A stretch of 64,000 nt of DNA from Bacteroidales bacterium (lineage in GTDB: Bacteria > Bacteroidota > Bacteroidia > Bacteroidales > FEN-979): positions 68,428 through 132,427 of the forward strand of contig JAUXWT010000035.1 of assembly GCA_030681475.1 (NCBI GenBank), read 5' to 3'. Both the position numbers and the translations under genes were made by a program. Below the pieces are notes generated by a model. It was not told where the DNA came from, did no database searches, and saw only the letters and a program-made list of their open reading frames with translations. Numbering within the stretch: position 1 is the first letter of the stretch; each line of letters starts with the position of its first letter. Below are positions 34,597 to 62,867 of this stretch, one piece after another.

Positions 34597-35598
34597 TTAA
34601 TGAATTTCGCTGATTTTCAGCGTGTCGTGGAAGAATGTGTCCCGTTTGGGAACCTTCTTCTTCAGCGTCTCATAACTCAACCCGCCATCGGTTGGGATCT
34701 TGAATATATATGATTTCCCGGATCTGTTCGGCAGGCTGTAGTCTTGAATCCACGGATTCAACTCCCTCAGAATCCTGTAATTAACCCCAAGTGTCCTGGC
34801 GAAATCCGATAAACTGCCGATGCTGCTGTCGATCATGACGTGACGCACAGGTACCTGTGGGTAAAAATCCTGTTCCCTCAGGTAGAACCCAAACTTTGCC
34901 GGATGATTGTAAACCTCCCTGATGGCCATGATCCGGTAAACATACCGCGATGTTTCCTCATTAAGATAGAGGTCATAGTAACTGTTTACCTTCTGGCTGT
35001 CCAATGCCCGCTGAAGACCATTGACACCCCGGTTATAAGAAGCCGCCACCAGTGTCCAGCTTTTAAAATCAGTATAGGCATCCTTTAAATAATCACATGC
35101 AGCCTGGGTTGCTTTCTCCATGTTATATCGTTCATCCACATGACCGTTAATCTCCAGTCCGTATTTATGACCTGTTGTTTTGATAAACTGCCAGTACCCT
35201 TCAGCGCCGGCCGGAGAAACTGCATTGGCAAGGTTGCTTTCAGCGATGGCCAGGAATTTGAAATCTTCGGGGATCCCATTTTTCTTCAGGATGGGCTCAA
35301 TGACCGGAAACCAGCGGTTGGCGCGCTTGAACATCATGGTAGTCATAGAATGCATGAAGGTATTTGCCATTATTTCGCGATCAAAAGCTTCCCTCACATA
35401 GTACAGGTCCAGCGGTACAGCTTCCCCCGCGAAATAAGCCTTTTCAGGTATTTCCGGAGCAAAAACCTTTGTGTAACGGGTAAAAAGGGTCTGGTATTCC
35501 TTGTCCTGATTCTTCAAAGCCACAGTGGCGCAGATCGAAATGGCACAGATCAGCAAAAGAACTGCACCGCCGAGATAATATGATGTTTTGTTGAGCAT
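34597..35598 (-). CDS. Lytic transglycosylase with LysM-like tail (MltD-like)
   Basis: The ATG at 35598 is chosen because it starts the membrane/signal segment (SYYLGGAVLLLICAIS); the open frame further upstream only translates the repeat array at 35627-35711. The product is 333 residues. The SLT domain has AIAESNLANAVSPAGAEGYW with the catalytic Glu near residue 120, then AASYNRGVNGL. A LysM-like segment near 258-305 (SLSDFARTLGVNYRILRELNPWI) likely binds peptidoglycan. It cleaves glycan strands during wall turnover. It follows rfbC on the same strand. Confidence 0.9.
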   Translation of the reverse strand: MLNKTSYYLGGAVLLLICAISICATVALKNQDKEYQTLFTRYTKVFAPEIPEKAYFAGEAVPLDLYYVREAFDREIMANTFMHSMTTMMFKRANRWFPVIEPILKKNGIPEDFKFLAIAESNLANAVSPAGAEGYWQFIKTTGHKYGLEINGHVDERYNMEKATQAACDYLKDAYTDFKSWTLVAASYNRGVNGLQRALDSQKVNSYYDLYLNEETSRYVYRIMAIREVYNHPAKFGFYLREQDFYPQVPVRHVMIDSSIGSLSDFARTLGVNYRILRELNPWIQDYSLPNRSGKSYIFKIPTDGGLSYETLKKKVPKRDTFFHDTLKISEIH

Positions 35599-35626
35599 TT
35601 GTTGTCTGTTTGTAGCTGAATATTTA

Positions 35627-35711
35627 GGTAACAGGGTAACAGGGTAACAGGGTAACAGGGTAACAGGGTGACTTGTCCGATTGTCCACTTGTCCACTCGT
35701 CCACTTGTCCC
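35627..35711. repeat. Double octamer array (GGTAACAG and CTTGTCCA types)
   Basis: Five perfect GGTAACAG units (35627-35666) and a partial GGTGAC are followed by five octamers of the second type (35672-35711): CTTGTCCG, ATTGTCCA, CTTGTCCA, CTCGTCCA, CTTGTCCC. It fills the gap between the rfbC stop and the transglycosylase start. Confidence 0.95.
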
Positions 35712-35716
35712 CCTGT

Positions 35717-36259
35717 TTAAAACGGACTCCCAATATCCCCGAACCCGGGCGCCACCTGATCCTTCTCCGAGATCAGCGGCTCCGCAACTCCCCAATTGAT
35801 ATTCAGGTTAGGATCGTTCCAGAGGATGCTGCCTTCACTGGCTTTATTATAGACATTTGTACACTTGTAAAAGAAAATTGTATCGTCTTCGAGTGTGACA
35901 AATCCATGGGCAAAGCCTGGTGGAACCCAGTACATCCATTTGTTTTGCCCTGTAAGAACGACGGAATCCCATTTTCCGTATGTGGGGGACTCTTTCCGGA
36001 TATCCACGGCGACGTCAACCACCGAACCGCGGATTACGCGTACCAATTTGCCCTGTGCAAAGGGCGGCGCCTGGAAATGAAGACCCCGAAGCACACCTTT
36101 CTTTGATTTTGACTCATTATCCTGAAGGAATTTCAGATCCAGCCCGGCATTCAGAAATTTCTCCTGGTTGAACGATTCGAAAAAATAGCCACGATCATCC
36201 TCAAATACATCGGGTTTGATGATCAACAAGCCTTCCAGCCGGGTTTTAGTTATTTCCAT
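35717..36259 (-). CDS. rfbC: dTDP-4-dehydrorhamnose 3,5-epimerase
   Basis: A 180-residue cupin enzyme of dTDP-L-rhamnose synthesis. Motifs: VFEDDRGYFFESFNQEKF near residue 17, KGVLRGLHFQAPPFAQGKLV (catalytic His in RGLHFQ), VVDVAVDIRKESPTYGKW, WVPPGFAHGFVTLED. The other rml genes (rfbA, rfbB, rfbD) are not in the window. Octamer arrays border it on both sides, separating it from lpdA upstream and the transglycosylase gene downstream. Confidence 0.96.
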   Translation of the reverse strand: MEITKTRLEGLLIIKPDVFEDDRGYFFESFNQEKFLNAGLDLKFLQDNESKSKKGVLRGLHFQAPPFAQGKLVRVIRGSVVDVAVDIRKESPTYGKWDSVVLTGQNKWMYWVPPGFAHGFVTLEDDTIFFYKCTNVYNKASEGSILWNDPNLNINWGVAEPLISEKDQVAPGFGDIGSPF

Positions 36260-36284
36260 ATTTTTTCACTATTTCACAATTCAC

Positions 36285-36368
36285 TATTTCGCTATTTCGC
36301 TATTTCGCTATTTCGCTATTTCGCTATTTCGCTATTTCGCTATTTCGCTATTTCGCTACCTCGCTACC
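36285..36368. repeat. Octamer tandem array (TATTTCGC type)
   Basis: Nine perfect copies of TATTTCGC run from 36285 to 36356, followed by TACCTCGC and TACC. Less regular TTTCAC copies precede it. The reverse complement, GCGAAATA, is the unit of the arrays at 53197 and 62784. The array fills the space between the lpdA stop and the rfbC start. Confidence 0.97.
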
Positions 36369-38784: not shown

Positions 38785-38832
38785 CTTGTCCGCCTGTCCG
38801 CCTGTCCGCCTGTCCACTTGCCCCCTTGCCCC
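38785..38832. repeat. Octamer tandem array (CTTGTCCG/CCTGTCCG type)
   Basis: Six octamers in a row: CTTGTCCG, CCTGTCCG, CCTGTCCG, CCTGTCCA, CTTGCCCC, CTTGCCCC. The unit is nearly the same as in the second half of the array at 35627-35711. It lies between the stop of the dehydratase gene and the start of miaA. Confidence 0.92.
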
Positions 38833-40904: not shown

Positions 40905-41993
40905 ATGAAATATACAGCATTCACCAGGTATCATGAAGCGATGGGTGGCAAGATGGTCCCTTTTGCAGGCTACAATATGCCTGTTCAGTTTGAAGGGATA
41001 AACATAGAACATGAAGCGGTTCGCAAGACACTAGGTGTTTTTGATGTTTCCCACATGGGCGAATTCTGGGTGAAAGGACCGAAAGCGCTTGATTTTATTC
41101 AATGGGTCACTTCGAACGATGCATCAAAGCTGGTTCCCGGGAAGGTGCAGTATTCCTGTTTCCCGAATGAAACGGGAGGCATTGTGGATGATCTGCTGGT
41201 TTATAAAGTTGATGACATAACCTATTTGCTGGTTGTAAATGCCGCCAATATTGACAAAGACTGGGCGTGGTGTGTCAAACAGAATAAGATGGGCGCCGTA
41301 TTATACAATGCGTCGGATGAAATTTCCCAGTTGGCCATCCAGGGTCCATTAGCGCTTAAGGCAATGCAAAAGCTCACCGACACTCCGGTCACTGGTATGG
41401 AATATTATACCTTTAAGAAATTGACATTTGCCGGAGTTCATAATGTAATTTTTGCCACTACAGGTTATACCGGTTCCGGTGGATGTGAGATTTATATGGC
41501 AAATGCAGATGCTCCCAAAATAATGGAAGATGTATTCAAAGCAGGAGCAGAATTTGGCATTAAACCCATCGGCCTGGCTGCCCGTGATACATTGCGCCTC
41601 GAAATGGGATATTGTCTTTATGGGAATGATATCAACGATACAACGTCGCCCATTGAAGCCGGATTGGGCTGGATCACCAAATTTACCGAAAATAAGGAGT
41701 TTATCAATAAATCTGCTTTACTGAAACAGAAACAGGAGGGACCCACACGCAAACTGGTCGGTTTTGAGATGGTTGACAAGGGAATTCCACGCCATGATTA
41801 TGAAATTGCAGATGAACAAGGAAATAAAATCGGTGAAGTAACGTCTGGAACCATGGGCCCATCTGTAAAGAAGGCAATCGGTATGGGATATGTACCAACT
41901 GCTTTATCCAGGGAAGGAGATGAAATTCATATAAAAATCAGGGATAAAATCCTCAAGGCGAGGGTGGTGAAGTTGCCGTTTTATAAGGCGTGA
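40905..41993 (+). CDS. gcvT: Glycine cleavage system T protein (aminomethyltransferase)
   Basis: A 362-residue folate-dependent enzyme. The ATG at 40905 is preferred over an upstream TTG because it begins the conserved [26 protein letters not shown] region closely. Further motifs are [27 protein letters not shown] and [21 protein letters not shown]. It transfers the methylene group from the H protein to tetrahydrofolate. gcvH and gcvP are not in the window. The stop codon TGA at 41991 lies inside the first unit of a heptamer array (41988-42029). Confidence 0.96.
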
Positions 41994-42029
41994 CGCGTAA
42001 CACGTGACACGTGACATGTGACGCGTGAC
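41988..42029. repeat. Heptamer tandem array (ACGTGAC type)
   Basis: Six contiguous heptamers: GCGTGAC, GCGTAAC, ACGTGAC, ACGTGAC, ATGTGAC, GCGTGAC. The first unit contains the gcvT stop codon. The reverse complement of the unit forms the array at 56772. Confidence 0.95.
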
Positions 42030-42067
42030 AAGGAGAAGTGTGAAATTTTTTATAAACCCTCTAATAT

Positions 42068-56768: not shown

Positions 56769-56771
56769 CTT

Positions 56772-56834
56772 CACTTGTCATTTGTCACGTGTCACGTGTC
56801 ACGTGTCACGTGTCACGTGTCACGTGTCACGTTT
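56772..56834. repeat. Heptamer tandem array (CACGTGT type) spanning two gene ends
   Basis: Nine heptamers without gap: CACTTGT, CATTTGT, six perfect CACGTGT, CACGTTT. On the minus strand the array contains the last codons and TGA stop (56815-56813) of the upstream glycosyltransferase, and a possible GTG start of the downstream one (56774). The unit is the reverse complement of the ACGTGAC-type array at 41988. Confidence 0.97.
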
Positions 56835-57967
56835 AATATCCCCAACAGCCTCTCCTCCTCCTCCTCCCAACAAAGCTCCTCCGCCGCTTTCAACAGATTC
56901 TGTTTGTAAAGTTTCATTTTTTCTTCATTGTTCAGCATTGAATCTATTTTCAAAGCAAGCATTTCAGGTTCATGGCTTTCAAGAAATTCACCAATCTGGT
57001 ATTGGTCAACGATGGATTTCATCTCCGGAAAAGGTGAAACCAATACCGGGATGTTAGCCTGGATATAGTCAAGGAACTTGTTCGGCAGGCAATTGTAGTA
57101 ATTGATACTTACATTTTTTTCAATGGAAAGGCCGACGTCGGCCATCAGGGTATATCCATGCAATTCCTGGAAGGGAACCTGGCCAAGGAATTTCACCTTA
57201 TCCGAAAGGTCGTGCTCCATTGTGAAATTTTGAAGCGTTTGATAAATGTCCCCAATTCCCGCGATAATCAGGATGGCATCGGTTTTCAGGTATTTTATCG
57301 CCAGGATGGCCTCTTCAAGACCACGGTCAACATTTACCGCGCCCTGGTAAAGGATTATTTTCTGCCCTGGCAGGATGTTCAGGGAAGCTTTATCAGATGC
57401 ACCGGCCAGCGATTTTCTGAATGGGACATTGCGAACAACATCTACATGAACACCATATTCACTTGAATAAAGGCCGGCAACCGATTGGTTCACGGCAAAT
57501 ACATGTTTCAACTTCGGAAATATCCGGTCCTCGATCCATTTCCATATCCCCAAAACAGTCTTTCGCCCATTAAGCTCCGGAACACCCCTGAAGTACTCAT
57601 GACAATCGTGAAGATGGCGGATCTTTGATTTTTGATCTTTGATTTTTGATCTTTGATTTGTAAACAGGTTTGCAAGGTAGTTTGCCGGAAGTGTATCAAG
57701 GTCGTTTGAGACAATCAGATCATACCTGTGCGTGAGCAGGAAGAAAAACAGTGTGATGTTGTATTCGGCGTAAAATAGCGGGCCTTTGTCAAACAGAAGC
57801 CTCATCCGGTGCATCCGGTAAGAACGTGGGGCGAGGGCCTTGCTGTTCCTGAGCCTCCGTCCAACAAGCAAAACCTTGTACCCCGCTTTCACCAAAGTCA
57901 GGCAAGTACGGTCAACCCGTTGATCGGTCGTAAGGTCGTTGGTCACTGAGACTATTGCAAGAGACAT
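56813..57967 (-). CDS. Glycosyltransferase family 4 protein
   Basis: About 384 residues from the ATG at 57967, which begins the typical MSLAIVSVTNDLTTDQRVDR segment. The C-terminal donor domain has IILYQGAVNVDRGLEEAI, NYYNCLPNKFLDYIQANIPV and the E-x7-E region following. Residues about 104-116 (NQRSKIKDQKSKIR) are encoded by a heptamer array inserted between a helix and the conserved HDCHEYF segment. The C-terminus NVTRDT and the stop are encoded by another array. A -7 box at 58031 lies upstream and a third array lies in the leader. Substrate unknown. Confidence 0.88.
   Translation of the reverse strand: MSLAIVSVTNDLTTDQRVDRTCLTLVKAGYKVLLVGRRLRNSKALAPRSYRMHRMRLLFDKGPLFYAEYNITLFFFLLTHRYDLIVSNDLDTLPANYLANLFTNQRSKIKDQKSKIRHLHDCHEYFRGVPELNGRKTVLGIWKWIEDRIFPKLKHVFAVNQSVAGLYSSEYGVHVDVVRNVPFRKSLAGASDKASLNILPGQKIILYQGAVNVDRGLEEAILAIKYLKTDAILIIAGIGDIYQTLQNFTMEHDLSDKVKFLGQVPFQELHGYTLMADVGLSIEKNVSINYYNCLPNKFLDYIQANIPVLVSPFPEMKSIVDQYQIGEFLESHEPEMLALKIDSMLNNEEKMKLYKQNLLKAAEELCWEEEEERLLGILNVTRDT
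57620..57659. repeat. In-frame heptamer array inside a glycosyltransferase gene
   Basis: GATCTTT and GATTTTT alternate (five full units and a partial one). On the minus strand it is open in the coding frame and encodes a Lys/Ser/Gln/Ile-rich stretch of about 13 residues. Confidence 0.9.
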
Positions 57968-57997
57968 GAAATTTACGATTTTACGATATACAGACTG

Positions 57998-58020
57998 AGT
58001 CTGCAGTCTGCAGTCTGCAG
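57998..58020. repeat. Heptamer array (AGTCTGC type) in the glycosyltransferase leader
   Basis: Three AGTCTGC units and a partial one, preceded by a related AGACTG. It sits between the predicted transcription start (near 58024) and the start codon at 57967 of the minus-strand gene, so it would be in the mRNA leader. Confidence 0.8.
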
Positions 58021-58030
58021 TTCGTTGTAA

Positions 58031-58038
58031 CAAAAGTA
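58031..58038 (-). promoter_or_regulatory. Putative -7 box for the GT4 gene
   Basis: The minus strand reads TACTTTTG, 64 bases before the ATG at 57967. Confidence 0.5.
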
Positions 58039-58070
58039 GTTTTTTCCGCTGAAACAACAGGTAATTCTAT

Positions 58071-58093: not shown

Positions 58094-59224
58094 ATGCATC
58101 TCGATCACAATGTTTCCCTGAAAACCCTGAATACCTTTGGAATGGAGGCGGTGGCCCGGTATTTTGTTGAGGCCAAAACACATACGGAGGTCTTGACCCT
58201 GCTCAACTACCGTAAAATGATCCACATGCCGATACTCTTCCTGGGAGGAGGCAGCAATATTCTCTTTACCGGCGATTTTAAAGGTATCGTCATCAGGATC
58301 AATTCAAAGGGCATTGTAATCAGGGAAGAAGATGAAGATCATGTGATTGTCACCGTGGAAGCAGGTGAAAACTGGGATGAATTTGTTCAGCATTGTGTTA
58401 GCAACCAATGGGCAGGACTTGAAAATCTCTCCCTGATCCCGGGGACCGTCGGCGCTGCGCCAATCCAGAATATAGGAGCATACGGAGTGGAGGTAAAGGA
58501 TGTCATTGAGTCTGTCGAAGTAGCCGAGATTGACTCCGGAAAACCAAGGCGATTTACCAATGCCGATTGTCAGTTTGGTTATCGCGACAGCATCTTTAAG
58601 CGTGAGCTTAAAGGAAAGGTCATTGTTCTCAGTGTCACCTTTAGGTTGAACAAATATCAAGGGTCGAATGGTGACAGGGTAACAGGGTTACAGGGTGACA
58701 GGGTAACAAGGTTACAGGGTGACAGGGTGACTGGCGCTTCCGTTTTTAAACTTGATTATGGTGACATTCGTAGTGAGCTTTCGCGACTGGGTGTTACTGA
58801 TCCGGCTATTTCTGATATCAGGGCGGCTGTGTGCAACATCCGCCGCCGCAAACTCCCTGATCCTGCTGAGATTGGCAATGCGGGAAGTTTCTTTAAAAAC
58901 CCGGTGATAACCAACGAACTTTTGGTTTCATTGCTGGAAAAGTTTCCAGGGATGCCCTTTTTTCCACAGTTAACTGAGAAAGAGGCAGCAACGCCCCAAT
59001 TGAATGATAGGCAGGGAAAGATCCCGGCAGCATGGCTTATCGAGCAGTGCGGATGGAAAGGGTATCGCAACGGTGATGCCGGGGTTCATCCTGATCAGCC
59101 GCTGGTGCTTGTGAATTATGGTAATGCCACTGGCCAGCAAATACTTGAACTCGCCAGCCTGATCATGGACTCAGTACAGGACAAATTTGGGGTAAGATTG
59201 GAAAAGGAAGTTAATGTACTATGA
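58094..59224 (+). CDS. murB: UDP-N-acetylenolpyruvoylglucosamine reductase with repeat-encoded insert
   Basis: About 376 residues from the ATG at 58094 (a TTG at 58076 adds six). The FAD-binding part has LNTFGMEA, LGGGSNILFTG and IPGTVGAAPIQNIGAYGVEV; the catalytic region has FGYRDSIFKREL, GNAGSFFKNPVI (general-acid Ser) and the C-terminal KEVNVL. It reduces the enolpyruvyl group in UDP-MurNAc synthesis. The protein is about 30 residues longer than E. coli MurB because an octamer array (58670-58733) encodes three copies of an eight-residue unit (GDRVTGLQ, GDRVTRLQ, GDRVTGAS) after the strand VIVLSVTFRLNK. The 3' end overlaps the convergent T9SS gene by 14 bases. Confidence 0.95.
   Translation: MHLDHNVSLKTLNTFGMEAVARYFVEAKTHTEVLTLLNYRKMIHMPILFLGGGSNILFTGDFKGIVIRINSKGIVIREEDEDHVIVTVEAGENWDEFVQHCVSNQWAGLENLSLIPGTVGAAPIQNIGAYGVEVKDVIESVEVAEIDSGKPRRFTNADCQFGYRDSIFKRELKGKVIVLSVTFRLNKYQGSNGDRVTGLQGDRVTRLQGDRVTGASVFKLDYGDIRSELSRLGVTDPAISDIRAAVCNIRRRKLPDPAEIGNAGSFFKNPVITNELLVSLLEKFPGMPFFPQLTEKEAATPQLNDRQGKIPAAWLIEQCGWKGYRNGDAGVHPDQPLVLVNYGNATGQQILELASLIMDSVQDKFGVRLEKEVNVL
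58670..58733. repeat. In-frame octamer array (GGTNACAG type) inside murB
   Basis: Eight octamers: GGTGACAG, GGTAACAG, GGTTACAG, GGTGACAG, GGTAACAA, GGTTACAG, GGTGACAG, GGTGACTG. The third and sixth carry TTA where TGA or TAA would end translation. The unit is the same as in the non-coding array at 35627. Confidence 0.96.
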
Positions 59225-61751
59225 GTTTTACAGTCGCCGAATGCCTGACTCCTTCTATGTTTACAAGATAAACCCCTGCTGGAATATCGCCGGTGATGCT
59301 TGCCTGCCCCCAGGCAATCTCCTGTTTCCCCTGCTTCAGCGTACCAGAAAATAATTCCTGTACCAGTTTCCCGTTTTGTCCATATACATTGACTGAAATC
59401 CGGTCTTCACCTGGCATATAAAATCGAAACATGGTACTGGTTTCAACGGGGTTGGGACTTGCAGTCAGATTTAGGGTTATTTTTCCGGCATTGGGCTCTG
59501 TTCCGGTCATCAGGAAATTCAGGCTCGCCTTATACGTGGATAATCCGTACGTCCCGGCAACGATCGTGCGTGTTGGAGCATGGATTTTAAGTGCACACAC
59601 AGGAACTGCCGGAACACCGTCAAATATCCAGTACCAGTACTGACCTCCGTTTGTTGTTCCATAAATGCCTGCATCGGTGCCCACGATGATCCGCCCGGGA
59701 AGATCGGGATCGAGGGCGATGTCATTGACGGGGAATTCAGGAAGGTTACCAGATATGTCGGTCCAGGACAATCCCAGGTTCGTTGATTTAAACACATGTG
59801 GGAGGGGCTCATCCCAACGGAAACCGGAGAGGGTGACATAGAGGGTCTGTGCGTTGAAGGGGTCGGCAGCCACTTTGGTGACCCATCGGTTTGGCAGTCC
59901 TGCCGAAATATTCTGCCAGGTTTGTCCGTCGTTGGATGAAAGGTGAACTTTTCCGTCACCGGTACCGGCGATCACAAGGGATGGATTGAGCGGAGAGACC
60001 GCGATGGTGGTGATGGTGTAAAAATACTGATTGATGCCTGCCGTGAGGTCATTGCTTACCGCCTGCCATGTGCTTCCCTTATTCGTGGATTTCCACACGC
60101 GGTAAGTCCCGAAATAGAGAATGGAGGGATTCACCGGATGCATAGCCAGGGGAGCCGACCAGTTCACCCGGTCGGACGACATCGGTCCGGCGATATAGTT
60201 CATATTGAATCCTCCGTCATCTGAACGGAACAGGTTCCCCCATTGATATTCGGCATAGATCGTATTCGGATCGGTATAATCAACAAGGGTGTACATTCCG
60301 TCACCGCCCAGGATAGGGACCCAGTTGCTGGTTCCTCCTGTCCAGGTCCTTACGGTGTTGTTATCCTGGGTCCCGCCATAGATGCGCTCAGGGTTCTGGT
60401 AGTCAATGTCGATCGCGTAAAATTGTGTCAGCGGCAGGTTATTGATCTTGTTCCAGTTGTTTCCATGGTCGCTGCTCAGGTATAACCCGCCGTCATTTCC
60501 TTCAATGATCCGGTTGTTGGCTACATCAAAGAACATGGCATGATGATCCACATGCAAATCCCATGAAGAGATATCGGTCCAGTTGTTCCCCCCATCATCA
60601 GACCTGAACAGGTTGACACCCATGACGAACACTTTGTTGGGATCAACCGGATCAACCCTGATTTGCCCGAAGTACCATCCAAAACTGCTGTTCATACCAA
60701 ACAAATCGCCATCATTGGTCCGGATCCAGGATTGGCCGGCATTTACCGACTTGTACACCGCAGCGTCATAGTCGGCAAGGTCGTAAAAGGCATACAGGAT
60801 ATCCGGACTGGATTTGGCAATGGCGAGGCCGATACGACCAACATTGGTCCCTGTGGGGACTCCGTTCGTCATCTCATTCCAGGTTGTTCCGCCATCGGCG
60901 CTCTTCCATATCCCGGAAGATTCGCCGAATGAGCTCCTGTAAGTCAATCCTCGGATCCGCTGCCACATCGAGGCATAGAGTATCTGAGGATTGGTTGGAT
61001 GCTGGACAAGGTCTATCGCTGATGTTGAATCATTGAGATACAACATCCTTTGCCAGGTTTGTCCGGCATCGTCGCTGCGGTAAACCCCACGTTCGTCGTT
61101 GGAAGTGAAGAGATTACCACATGCGGCGACAAAAACCCGCTGTGAATTGGAATGATCCACCACAACCCGTCCAATGTATGCTGAATTTGACAACCCCATG
61201 TGCTGCCAGGATGTGCCGGCATCGGTGGATTTATAGACCCCGTTTCCTAGAAAACTGAAACTGGATGAATTGGCTTCGCCGGTACCGCAATATATGACCT
61301 GAGAATTGTTTGGGTCAATGGCAATATCCCCGACTGAAATGACCGGTACACCGGTGAAAAGATTGGTCCAGGTTGCTCCCAGATCCGTGGTTTTCAGAAT
61401 ACCTCCGGTGGCAGCGCCAATGTATATGGTTGACGGATTACCGGCAGGGGATTCAATATCGGTGATCCGGCCTCCGATGTTGTCGGGACCAGTGAAAATC
61501 CACGGATTGCTGTTCGCGAAGGCATTGTCCATCAGTCCTTTAGCCTGTTGAGTGGCTTCCCGGAATGCGGCAGGATTGATCCGGTCGTGCGGATAAAGGC
61601 GTTGCATGGCCATCCAATCGTTGGGTTCGAGGGATGGGGGCGTCCATCTGGGAGGTAATGAAAACAATGAAAACAATGCAAACAATGCAGAGAATGCAAA
61701 CAATGCGGACAATGCAATTAATGCATGGTTTTTGGTGAAGGGGGTTTTCAT
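59211..61751 (-). CDS. Secreted beta-propeller (BNR/sortilin-like) protein with T9SS type A signal
   Basis: An 846-residue protein. The signal peptide contains a nine-base array giving a repeated Ala-Leu-Phe/Ser core. The body has many BNR-type Asp-box repeats such as VYKSTDAGTSWQHM, IYKSADGGTTWNEM-like GIWKSADGGTTWNEM, LFRSDDGGNNW and LYLSSDHGNNW, forming one or two propellers like VPS10/sortilin or glycosidase-type families. The C-terminus has ASPNPVETSTMFRFYMPG, VNVYGQNGKLVQEL and GVYLVNIEG, the hallmarks of the T9SS type A sorting domain. It is exported to the surface or medium. The ligand is unknown. No second T9SS gene is adjacent. Confidence 0.9.
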   Translation of the reverse strand: MKTPFTKNHALIALSALFAFSALFALFSLFSLPPRWTPPSLEPNDWMAMQRLYPHDRINPAAFREATQQAKGLMDNAFANSNPWIFTGPDNIGGRITDIESPAGNPSTIYIGAATGGILKTTDLGATWTNLFTGVPVISVGDIAIDPNNSQVIYCGTGEANSSSFSFLGNGVYKSTDAGTSWQHMGLSNSAYIGRVVVDHSNSQRVFVAACGNLFTSNDERGVYRSDDAGQTWQRMLYLNDSTSAIDLVQHPTNPQILYASMWQRIRGLTYRSSFGESSGIWKSADGGTTWNEMTNGVPTGTNVGRIGLAIAKSSPDILYAFYDLADYDAAVYKSVNAGQSWIRTNDGDLFGMNSSFGWYFGQIRVDPVDPNKVFVMGVNLFRSDDGGNNWTDISSWDLHVDHHAMFFDVANNRIIEGNDGGLYLSSDHGNNWNKINNLPLTQFYAIDIDYQNPERIYGGTQDNNTVRTWTGGTSNWVPILGGDGMYTLVDYTDPNTIYAEYQWGNLFRSDDGGFNMNYIAGPMSSDRVNWSAPLAMHPVNPSILYFGTYRVWKSTNKGSTWQAVSNDLTAGINQYFYTITTIAVSPLNPSLVIAGTGDGKVHLSSNDGQTWQNISAGLPNRWVTKVAADPFNAQTLYVTLSGFRWDEPLPHVFKSTNLGLSWTDISGNLPEFPVNDIALDPDLPGRIIVGTDAGIYGTTNGGQYWYWIFDGVPAVPVCALKIHAPTRTIVAGTYGLSTYKASLNFLMTGTEPNAGKITLNLTASPNPVETSTMFRFYMPGEDRISVNVYGQNGKLVQELFSGTLKQGKQEIAWGQASITGDIPAGVYLVNIEGVRHSATVKLIVH
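61660..61722. repeat. Nine-base tandem array in a signal-peptide coding region
   Basis: Seven 9-base units (GAAAACAAT, GAAAACAAT, GCAAACAAT, GCAGAGAAT, GCAAACAAT, GCGGACAAT, GCAATTAAT). On the minus strand each encodes three residues: SLF, SLF, ALF, AFS, ALF, ALS and ALI in reverse gene order. They form the hydrophobic core of the signal peptide. Confidence 0.92.
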
Positions 61752-62776: not shown

Positions 62777-62783
62777 ATTTAAA

Positions 62784-62867
62784 TAGCGAAATGGTGAAAT
62801 AGCGAAATGGCGAAATGGCGAAATGGCGAAGTTACAAATTTGTAACTTGTAACTTGTAACTTGTAAT
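62784..62867. repeat. Composite array (TAGCGAAA octamers then TTGTAAC heptamers)
   Basis: Six octamers: TAGCGAAA, TGGTGAAA, TAGCGAAA, TGGCGAAA, TGGCGAAA, TGGCGAAG. They are followed by four heptamers from 62840: TTGTAAC, TTGTAAC, TTGTAAC, TTGTAAT. A short inverse (TTACAAA, 62832-62838) at the junction could pair with the first heptamer. It fills the pyrK-pyrD gap. Confidence 0.95.

Follow-up and report, generated by a model that had tools for sequence, protein, structure and literature searches.

How an array of 8-bp units comes to lie within the open frame of murB is the question raised by this locus. The window, i.e., the whole stretch of DNA that was analysed, covers 64,000 nucleotides of a Bacteroidales genome (G000 below), and the two features at issue are as follows:

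58094..59224, + strand: murB, UDP-N-acetylenolpyruvoylglucosamine reductase, 376 aa, with Pfam families MurB_C and FAD_binding_4
58670..58733, + strand: in-frame octamer array of GGTNACAG type, 8 units with a 24-bp higher-order unit, in the loop before LDYGDI

The array consists of eight 8-bp units, GGTGACAG GGTAACAG GGTTACAG GGTGACAG GGTAACAA GGTTACAG GGTGACAG GGTGACTG, which are translated as GDRVTGLQ GDRVTRLQ GDRVTG. The initial annotation had described an octamer array in frame in murB, and this is confirmed by the eight units, the 376-aa frame, and the period of 8 found by Tandem Repeats Finder (7.8 copies, 85% match), with a period of 24 (2.5 copies, 97% match) outscoring it. Because 8 equals 2 modulo 3, T-N-A forms one codon in every third unit. 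In units 3 and 6, both GGTTACAG, this codon is read TTA; an A or G there would give TAA or TGA. GGTRACAG repeats read on the opposite strand are free of this stop. The further claim of a stop-avoiding variant at every third unit is thus borne out, TTA taking the place of the TAA or TGA that a GGTRACAG unit would bring. This pattern follows from the triplet reading of an 8-bp unit together with a presumed 24-bp duplication. At position 4 of the unit, 30 arrays of G000 outside murB (179 units, each with at most one mismatch) have G 89 times, A 87 times, T three times, and C never, so that two T among the eight murB units are unusual, and both fall in the stop phase.

In AlphaFold2 models of MurB from G000 and a congener (G017), the array residues have pLDDT values below 50, in models that are too poor overall (mean 57.3 and 56.6) to locate the loop, the alignment of 12 close relatives being too shallow. 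The tyrosine of LDYGDI, directly after the insert, is presumably the counterpart of E. coli Tyr190. In the available text of one study, Tyr190 is named as a hydrogen-bond partner in MurB inhibitor poses (PMC10058398).

Other arrays of this kind occur throughout the window:

35627..35674, + strand: GGTNACAG-family array, five GGTAACAG and one GGTGACTT
35671..35710, + strand: TTGTCCAC-type 8-bp array adjoining the preceding one; the same kind lies within murB of G012
36264..36366, + strand: TTTCGCTA 8-bp array, 13 copies, between ORFs
38787..38815, + strand: TGTCCGCC 8-bp array between ORFs; the unit is also found inside a threonine-synthase-like gene of G000
41989..42030, + strand: CGTGACGCGTGACA array at an ORF end; family shared with an array inside murF-alr of G000
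56771..56832, + strand: 7-bp array of TCACGTG units; it shares 20 bases with the end of the glycosyltransferase ORF
56813..58057, - strand: neighbouring glycosyltransferase ORF (PF00534, PF13439) with a 7/14-bp array
57620..57659, - strand: in-gene 7/14-bp array of that glycosyltransferase, in frame, encoding NQRSKIKDQKSKI
62781..62830, + strand: AAATGGCG 8-bp array between ORFs; the unit is also found inside a cobW-family (hypB-like) gene of G000

The array at 35627 had been described as built of a single unit, which is true of its five GGTAACAG copies but not of the final GGTGACTT, and GGTAACAG and GGTGACAG are mixed in many other arrays of the G000 genome. This array is probably non-coding, judging by its place upstream of the in-frame ATG at 35598-35596 (minus strand) of ORF 34597-35733(-). 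A 9-bp repeat, AATGCAAAC, is found at 61657-61725, at the start of ORF 59211-61751(-); its period is divisible by three, and it is likely an ordinary signal-peptide repeat.

Array families and the MurB loop across the genus

The genus was compared using one genome per species, and a murB match was found in 17 of the 19 genomes, that of the window included. Some MurB starts are still misplaced (G011, G018, G022, and others), which leaves the loop unaffected. From LSVTF to YGDI, the 17 genus proteins have 22-71 aa, one of them being cut by a contig end. For other genera of the order, 13 MurBs were examined, a subset of the 18 non-genus genomes with a match, and in all of them the same stretch measures 20-21 aa. 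A broader panel comprised the best 80 of at least 593 candidates, 79 of which come from outside the genus at 44-50% identity; their two-motif distance is 108-113 residues, compared to 137 in G000 and 134 in the only genus member of the panel, CAIQUS010000017.1 (G012). The alignment had been proposed as a check on whether the insert is variable among relatives, and within the genus it does vary in both length and sequence, as predicted. The same residues in distant MurBs, which would have pointed to an ordinary conserved loop, were looked for, and all 13 proteins and all 79 panel loci are short; an ordinary conserved loop is therefore rejected.

The units in the loop differ by species. G017 has four copies of GGTAACAGGGTAACAGGGTTACAA with one change in the first copy, G018 a short GGTNACAG array, G012 CCACCCGT-type units (the unit also being given as TCCACCCG), and G015 CCAACTTA units, and the arrays of G002, G003, and G008 are degenerate, that of G002 lacking significance in the lag test described below. 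Seven murB loops have a similar right edge as judged by eye.

Several of these units belong to dispersed families. A two-unit pattern, GGTNACAGGGTNACAG, has 91 matches in the 4.24-Mb G000 genome (111 contigs) and none in a reversed control, which excludes chance. Among 41 genomes (that of the window, 18 others of the genus, and 22 from outside) the pattern is present in nine: G000 with 91 matches, G017 with 278, G007 with 163, G018 with 65, G012 and G008 with 18 each, and G011 with seven, and, from outside the genus, G022 and G024 with two each. Two of the seven species with a similar right edge, G002 and G016, have no GGTNACAGGGTNACAG match. Among the clusters listed, G000 has 31 arrays of the GGTNACAG family, and that of murB is the sole one judged to be gene-interior; the others that fall fully inside 100-aa frames are about 60 residues or less from a start that was chosen mechanically, or belong to short frames on the antisense strand, and probably lie upstream of the real starts. 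The CTTACCAA pattern is found 64 times in G015, 40 times in G008, and nine times in G017, with no match in 16 of the 19 genus genomes. CCACYYRT matches occur in 12 of 19 genus genomes, but the comparison with the reversed control is weak (31 vs. 18 in G012, 55 vs. 13 in G013, and 1 vs. 14 in G014), since the pattern is loose enough for the control to match as well. The murB loops of G007 and G013 feature no significant array in the lag test, although both genomes are rich in array families (the 163 and 55 matches given above). Overall, the different murB-loop units are dispersed families of their own genomes, the case of CCACYYRT being weaker.

Array density was estimated with Tandem Repeats Finder for periods 7, 8, 14, and 16. 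A 464-kb sample of G000 contains 35 such arrays (7.5 per 100 kb), compared to eight in 508 kb (1.6 per 100 kb) of the 79 other-genus loci, a control made up of murB-centred loci only; for period 8 alone the counts are 17 and 0. The control panel has two in-ORF arrays with these periods (L107, L152) as well as three of 21 bp (two in L076, one in L088), indicating that in-gene arrays are not confined to the genus. When periods 7, 8, 14, 15, 16, 21, and 24 are taken together, the G000 sample holds 58 arrays, 27 between mechanically called ORFs, 14 at ORF edges, and 17 inside. Eight of the 17 in-ORF array proteins were scanned against Pfam, and seven have a family (L220 has none). The outside-gene arrays at L009:2465-2528 and L159:2457-2600 alternate two octamers in a 16-bp higher-order unit, unlike the murB and MFS transporter arrays of G000 and G017, which repeat three octamers over 24 bp.

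Arrays at six linker sites

In-frame 7-8 bp units are found at six loop or linker sites in five genes: murB, an MFS transporter gene, polA, murF (two sites), and meaB. Among the matches listed, a stop-free translated array is present in the MFS transporter of G017, and the listing of T/C variants led to the MFS orthologs of G012, G007, and G008 and to polA of G007. When orthologs from the genus were compared, many species proved to have in-frame arrays at the MFS loop and in the linker of PolA, and in MurF and MeaB the units differ by species. The second murF site (murF_2) falls between Mur_ligase_M and Mur_ligase_C, and the PolA site between the 5′-3′ and 3′-5′ exonuclease domains; MeaB has 36 residues at a place where a solved homolog has five. 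In the 464-kb sample, arrays in Pfam-recognised ORFs occur in the neighbouring glycosyltransferase, murF-alr, a PALP gene (threonine synthase being the best solved matches), meaB, a cobW-family gene that we take for hypB, and a thioredoxin-like ORF, where a TGACAAA 7-bp array lies in the N-terminal region (L226:11502-11534). An intergenic 14-bp array beside meaB (L233:15385-15451) holds both meaB units, CGACTGC and CAAACTG, which hints at local spread. In murF-alr of G008 (L254), which is at a contig end, the frame runs into a stop next to 7-bp arrays, and the alanine racemase part holds a 36-bp unit of CGGGACG-like heptamers; this gene has the only array in the five compared genes with a broken or unfinished frame.

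The six sites gave 103 site-by-species linkers. Arrays already observed in some species had guided the choice of sites, so the fractions below are not genome averages, and the choice drew on more than the six labelled discovery rows (for MFS, also G007, G008, and G012). Left out for lack of a match were murB of G001 and G009 and, at 1e-40, meaB of G001, G002, G003, and G014. MFS of G003 was omitted because it is split between contigs, murF of G001 because its match is distant, and murF of G008 because of stops and a contig end; murB of G008, cut by a contig end, was retained.

Base identity in these linkers is 0.370 at lag 7 (z 24.2) and 0.349 at lag 8 (z 19.3), and peaks occur at lags 7, 8, 14, 16, 21, and 24 (z 9.9 to 24.2), compared to lag identities of 0.23-0.27 in flanking coding sequence of the same genes. 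Across the 103 linkers there is no peak at lags 6 and 9 (codon-shuffle level) or at lags 10 and 11 (below it). At p ≤0.01 with 300 codon shuffles per linker, lag 7 is significant in 34 of 103 linkers, lag 8 in 26, and either in 57; lags 6, 9, 10, and 11 are significant in none, lag 5 in one, and lags 12 and 13 in three each. Without the six discovery rows, 32 of 97 linkers are significant at lag 7 and 22 of 97 at lag 8. A repeat at the protein level is rejected, there being no signal at lags 6 or 9. Unit length also differs by site, the murB and MFS sites being significant only for 8-mers and murF_2 only for 7-mers. Observed directly, then, are the arrays, their frame, their absence from the examined non-genus MurBs, and the 7-8 bp period at six sites.

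In the 16 linkers with octamer-like units, the stop place of the 33 in-phase units is taken by T 21 times and by C eight times (29 in all), with two A and two G. Among the 68 off-phase units, 17 have T or C there (six T and 11 C), the others being 27 A and 24 G. In the four in-phase units with A or G a neighbouring base is altered such that no stop is formed. This excess reflects the requirement for an open frame, and shows a filter rather than a special array. The suggestion in the initial annotation of selection on an inserted array is accordingly supported by these counts in its simplest form. Its alternative, an array type able to enter genes without breaking them, fares less well for the octamer: T variants also occur in arrays of relatives that lie in no 80-aa open frame, and many unrelated units enter genes too.

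Grouping by one mismatch on either strand (greedy) places 60 arrays in 26 unit families. With G010 dropped as nearly identical to G005, a unit is shared in 12 of 42 same-species pairs of different sites vs. 45 of 577 between-species pairs, a result reached in 0 of 300 permutations. Most in-gene units match families elsewhere in their own genome. Nine of eleven in-gene or gene-edge units of G000 match an array outside the listed in-gene set of the 464-kb sample, among them AAGATCA, whose match lies just 10 bases inside an ORF, GTGACAC, whose match is partly its own edge array, and CAAGGGGA, whose match is an array in a 91-aa ORF. No matching array was found in the 464-kb sample for AGTCAGC of polA or AAAATCA of the glycosyltransferase.

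Origin of the in-gene arrays

The reading we favour, with a probability of roughly 0.78, is that a genus-wide process makes or spreads 7-8 bp arrays, and that purifying selection keeps those that lie in tolerant loops, preserve the frame, and have had their in-phase stops removed. Such a process, active across the genus, would produce or spread 7-/8-bp tandem arrays from a set of units that changes by species, with most arrays falling between ORFs or at ORF edges and some within genes. Purifying selection would retain in-gene arrays only in loops or interdomain linkers that tolerate extra residues, where the total length keeps the frame and in-phase stops have become sense codons. In murB, the tolerant place would be the loop that separates strand LSVTFRL from the LDYGDI segment, and the in-phase GGTTACAG unit would have removed TAA/TGA. 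Growth there would proceed by copying of a 24-bp block because only three-unit steps (24 bp) keep the frame, and this would put TTA at every third unit. Both the survival filter as cause and the 24-bp duplication are what we infer from the units and their frame. That each genome has a common source is favoured by the sharing of units within genomes and by their turnover from species to species. Polymerase slippage, unequal recombination, and copying between arrays would each fit some of the data. Against the reading stand the preference of sites for one unit length, which random arrival does not explain, the murB loops of G007 and G013 with no significant array, and the two G000 units for which no matching array was found in the sample. 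An untidy DNA process thus seems to supply protein linkers to core enzymes, MurB, MurF, and DNA polymerase I among them.

A second possibility, which appears unlikely as a full account, is that one GGTNACAG array entered murB in the ancestor of the genus and then drifted, decayed, and re-expanded, the other units being its descendants. The right loop edge common to seven species fits a single ancestral insert, as do the GGTTACA-like degenerate remnants seen by eye in G002, G003, and G008. Cross-species units are also more alike at one site than at different sites (2.79 vs. 3.35 mismatches for 7-mers and 3.08 vs. 3.83 for 8-mers, with G010 again dropped), pointing to drift in place, or to constraint on residues, as an additional factor. 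However, CCAACTTA and TCCACCCG bear no close resemblance to GGTNACAG and match families of their own genomes (the G012 case being weaker), and sharing of units between sites of one species is unexpected under separate drift. Furthermore, a tree of five genes shows no exclusive clade of G000, G017, and G018, though several supports are low (0.37-0.59), and with these weak nodes gains were not counted from the tree. Given the likeness of units at one site, part of the pattern may reflect old arrays that have drifted where they are, or constraint on residues, instead of repeated arrival.

It is rather doubtful that a dedicated enzyme writes or copies arrays in steps of 7-8 nt and moves array families, core-protein linkers being largely its product. 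If such a dedicated activity were real, non-triplet arrays would be a standing source of new protein sequence subject to an in-phase stop filter.

It is more doubtful still that the arrays are favoured as adaptive linkers, with length and sequence tuning, e.g., the domain motions of MurB, MurF, and PolA, rather than being tolerated. Several sites, murF_2 and PolA among them, are indeed interdomain linkers. In 10 of 103 linkers, two-unit GGTNACAR runs lie on the coding strand, and no linker has one on the opposite strand, even though GGTRACAG arrays bring in-phase stops in the coding-strand orientation and none in the reverse; the first orientation reads as hydrophilic. However, tolerance of hydrophilic loops accounts for the bias as well. 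The unit, and hence the peptide, differs by species at the same site, and a significant 7-8 bp repeat is missing from 46 of 103 linkers.

A switch in which gain or loss of units shifts the frame and turns the gene off or on is very improbable and was rejected. Units of 7 and 8 bp do shift the frame, but growth should require MurB and probably also PolA, and the genus rows of the five genes show no internal stops except in murF of G008 (contig end, inside arrays), the linkers having been taken from open frames. Phase variation by short repeats with units of 1-5 nt is known in other bacteria (PMC4692102). An assembly artefact of repeat-rich metagenome bins, also rejected, is the least credible of all: genus assemblies do have about 90-620 contigs and murF of G008 reaches a contig end within arrays, but array-bearing open frames with conserved, contiguous flanks recur in many species and genes, and misassembly would not arrange the absence of in-phase stops.

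Under the favoured reading, the same linkers filled with different non-triplet units in up to 19 related species amount to a test, replicated in nature, of the way in which raw repeat DNA is turned into protein. The limits set by selection are readable, namely a frame-keeping length, no in-phase stops, and hydrophilic readings. The system also bears on why 7-/8-bp arrays are so common in some bacteria, as its unit families vary by species and lend themselves to counting. For annotation, it cautions that what looks like a low-complexity insert in a core protein of such a genome may stem from a DNA repeat instead of being a domain.

Comparison with known repeat systems

Rickettsia palindromic elements are small repeats inserted in frame into protein genes, but they are longer and palindromic, whereas the arrays of the genus are plain direct repeats of 7-8 bp, the murB array being a direct octamer repeat as judged from its sequence. 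Short tandem arrays in a functional RNA gene, a case described by its title, are alike in being in-gene arrays and differ in that the gene encodes an RNA rather than protein linkers. With periods of 7, 8, and their multiples, within the unit range of about 6-9 bp, with many copies, and with a position mostly outside genes, the arrays fit the bacterial class of dispersed tandem arrays with short (7-8 bp) units (heptamer SSR or STRR-like).

Heptamer arrays and tandem repeats within ORFs are already known (PMC4679880; PMC4692102; PMC9879509), while the open-licence literature searched yielded no case of non-triplet arrays that recur in the linkers of core enzymes in bacteria, an absence that is weak evidence. 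Heptameric simple sequence repeats of the G-rich unit GGGAATC are described in Xanthomonas and Nostoc, with an excess in non-coding DNA and some intragenic copies (PMC4692102). As far as the available part of that article goes, they are likewise dispersed 7-bp tandem arrays; the units of the genus differ in not being G4-type runs and in comprising many types per genome.

Direct repeats of the heptamer TAACTGA occur in Beggiatoaceae, Cyanobacteria, and some Bacteroidetes (MacGregor, 2015; PMC4679880). In the accessible text they are mostly intergenic with some in ORFs, the forward orientation gives stops in all frames, and coding insertions seem to succeed mainly at the protein periphery; other Bacteroidetes heptamers are mentioned as well (PMC4679880). 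TAACTGA is not the unit of the murB array or its relatives, which are GGTNACAG and others. That system also differs in having one central unit, and the same text describes neither stop-avoiding variants nor the recurrence of different units in the same linker.

Borg tandem repeats are found genome-wide, both between and inside ORFs, evolve fast, and are in frame when inside ORFs (PMC9879509). In the sections available, a hotspot is reported in which eight TolA homologs of different Borgs each have unique repeats (PMC9879509). All in-ORF Borg units, as given there, are divisible by three, in contrast to the 7/8-bp units of the genus, in which only the total length keeps the frame. This is reflected in the linkers, where lag 7 or 8 is significant in 57 of 103 and lags 6 and 9 in none; in murB, a 24-bp higher-order unit is superimposed on the octamer. 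Repeat regions of the Borg type are commonly intrinsically disordered. The carriers differ as well: Borgs are described as archaeal extrachromosomal elements, with the repeats often in extracellular or membrane proteins, while in the genus the arrays are carried by bacterial core enzymes and their in-phase stops are removed. Of the systems compared, the TolA case as documented in that source comes closest, as an earlier example of homologous proteins in which different repeats recur.
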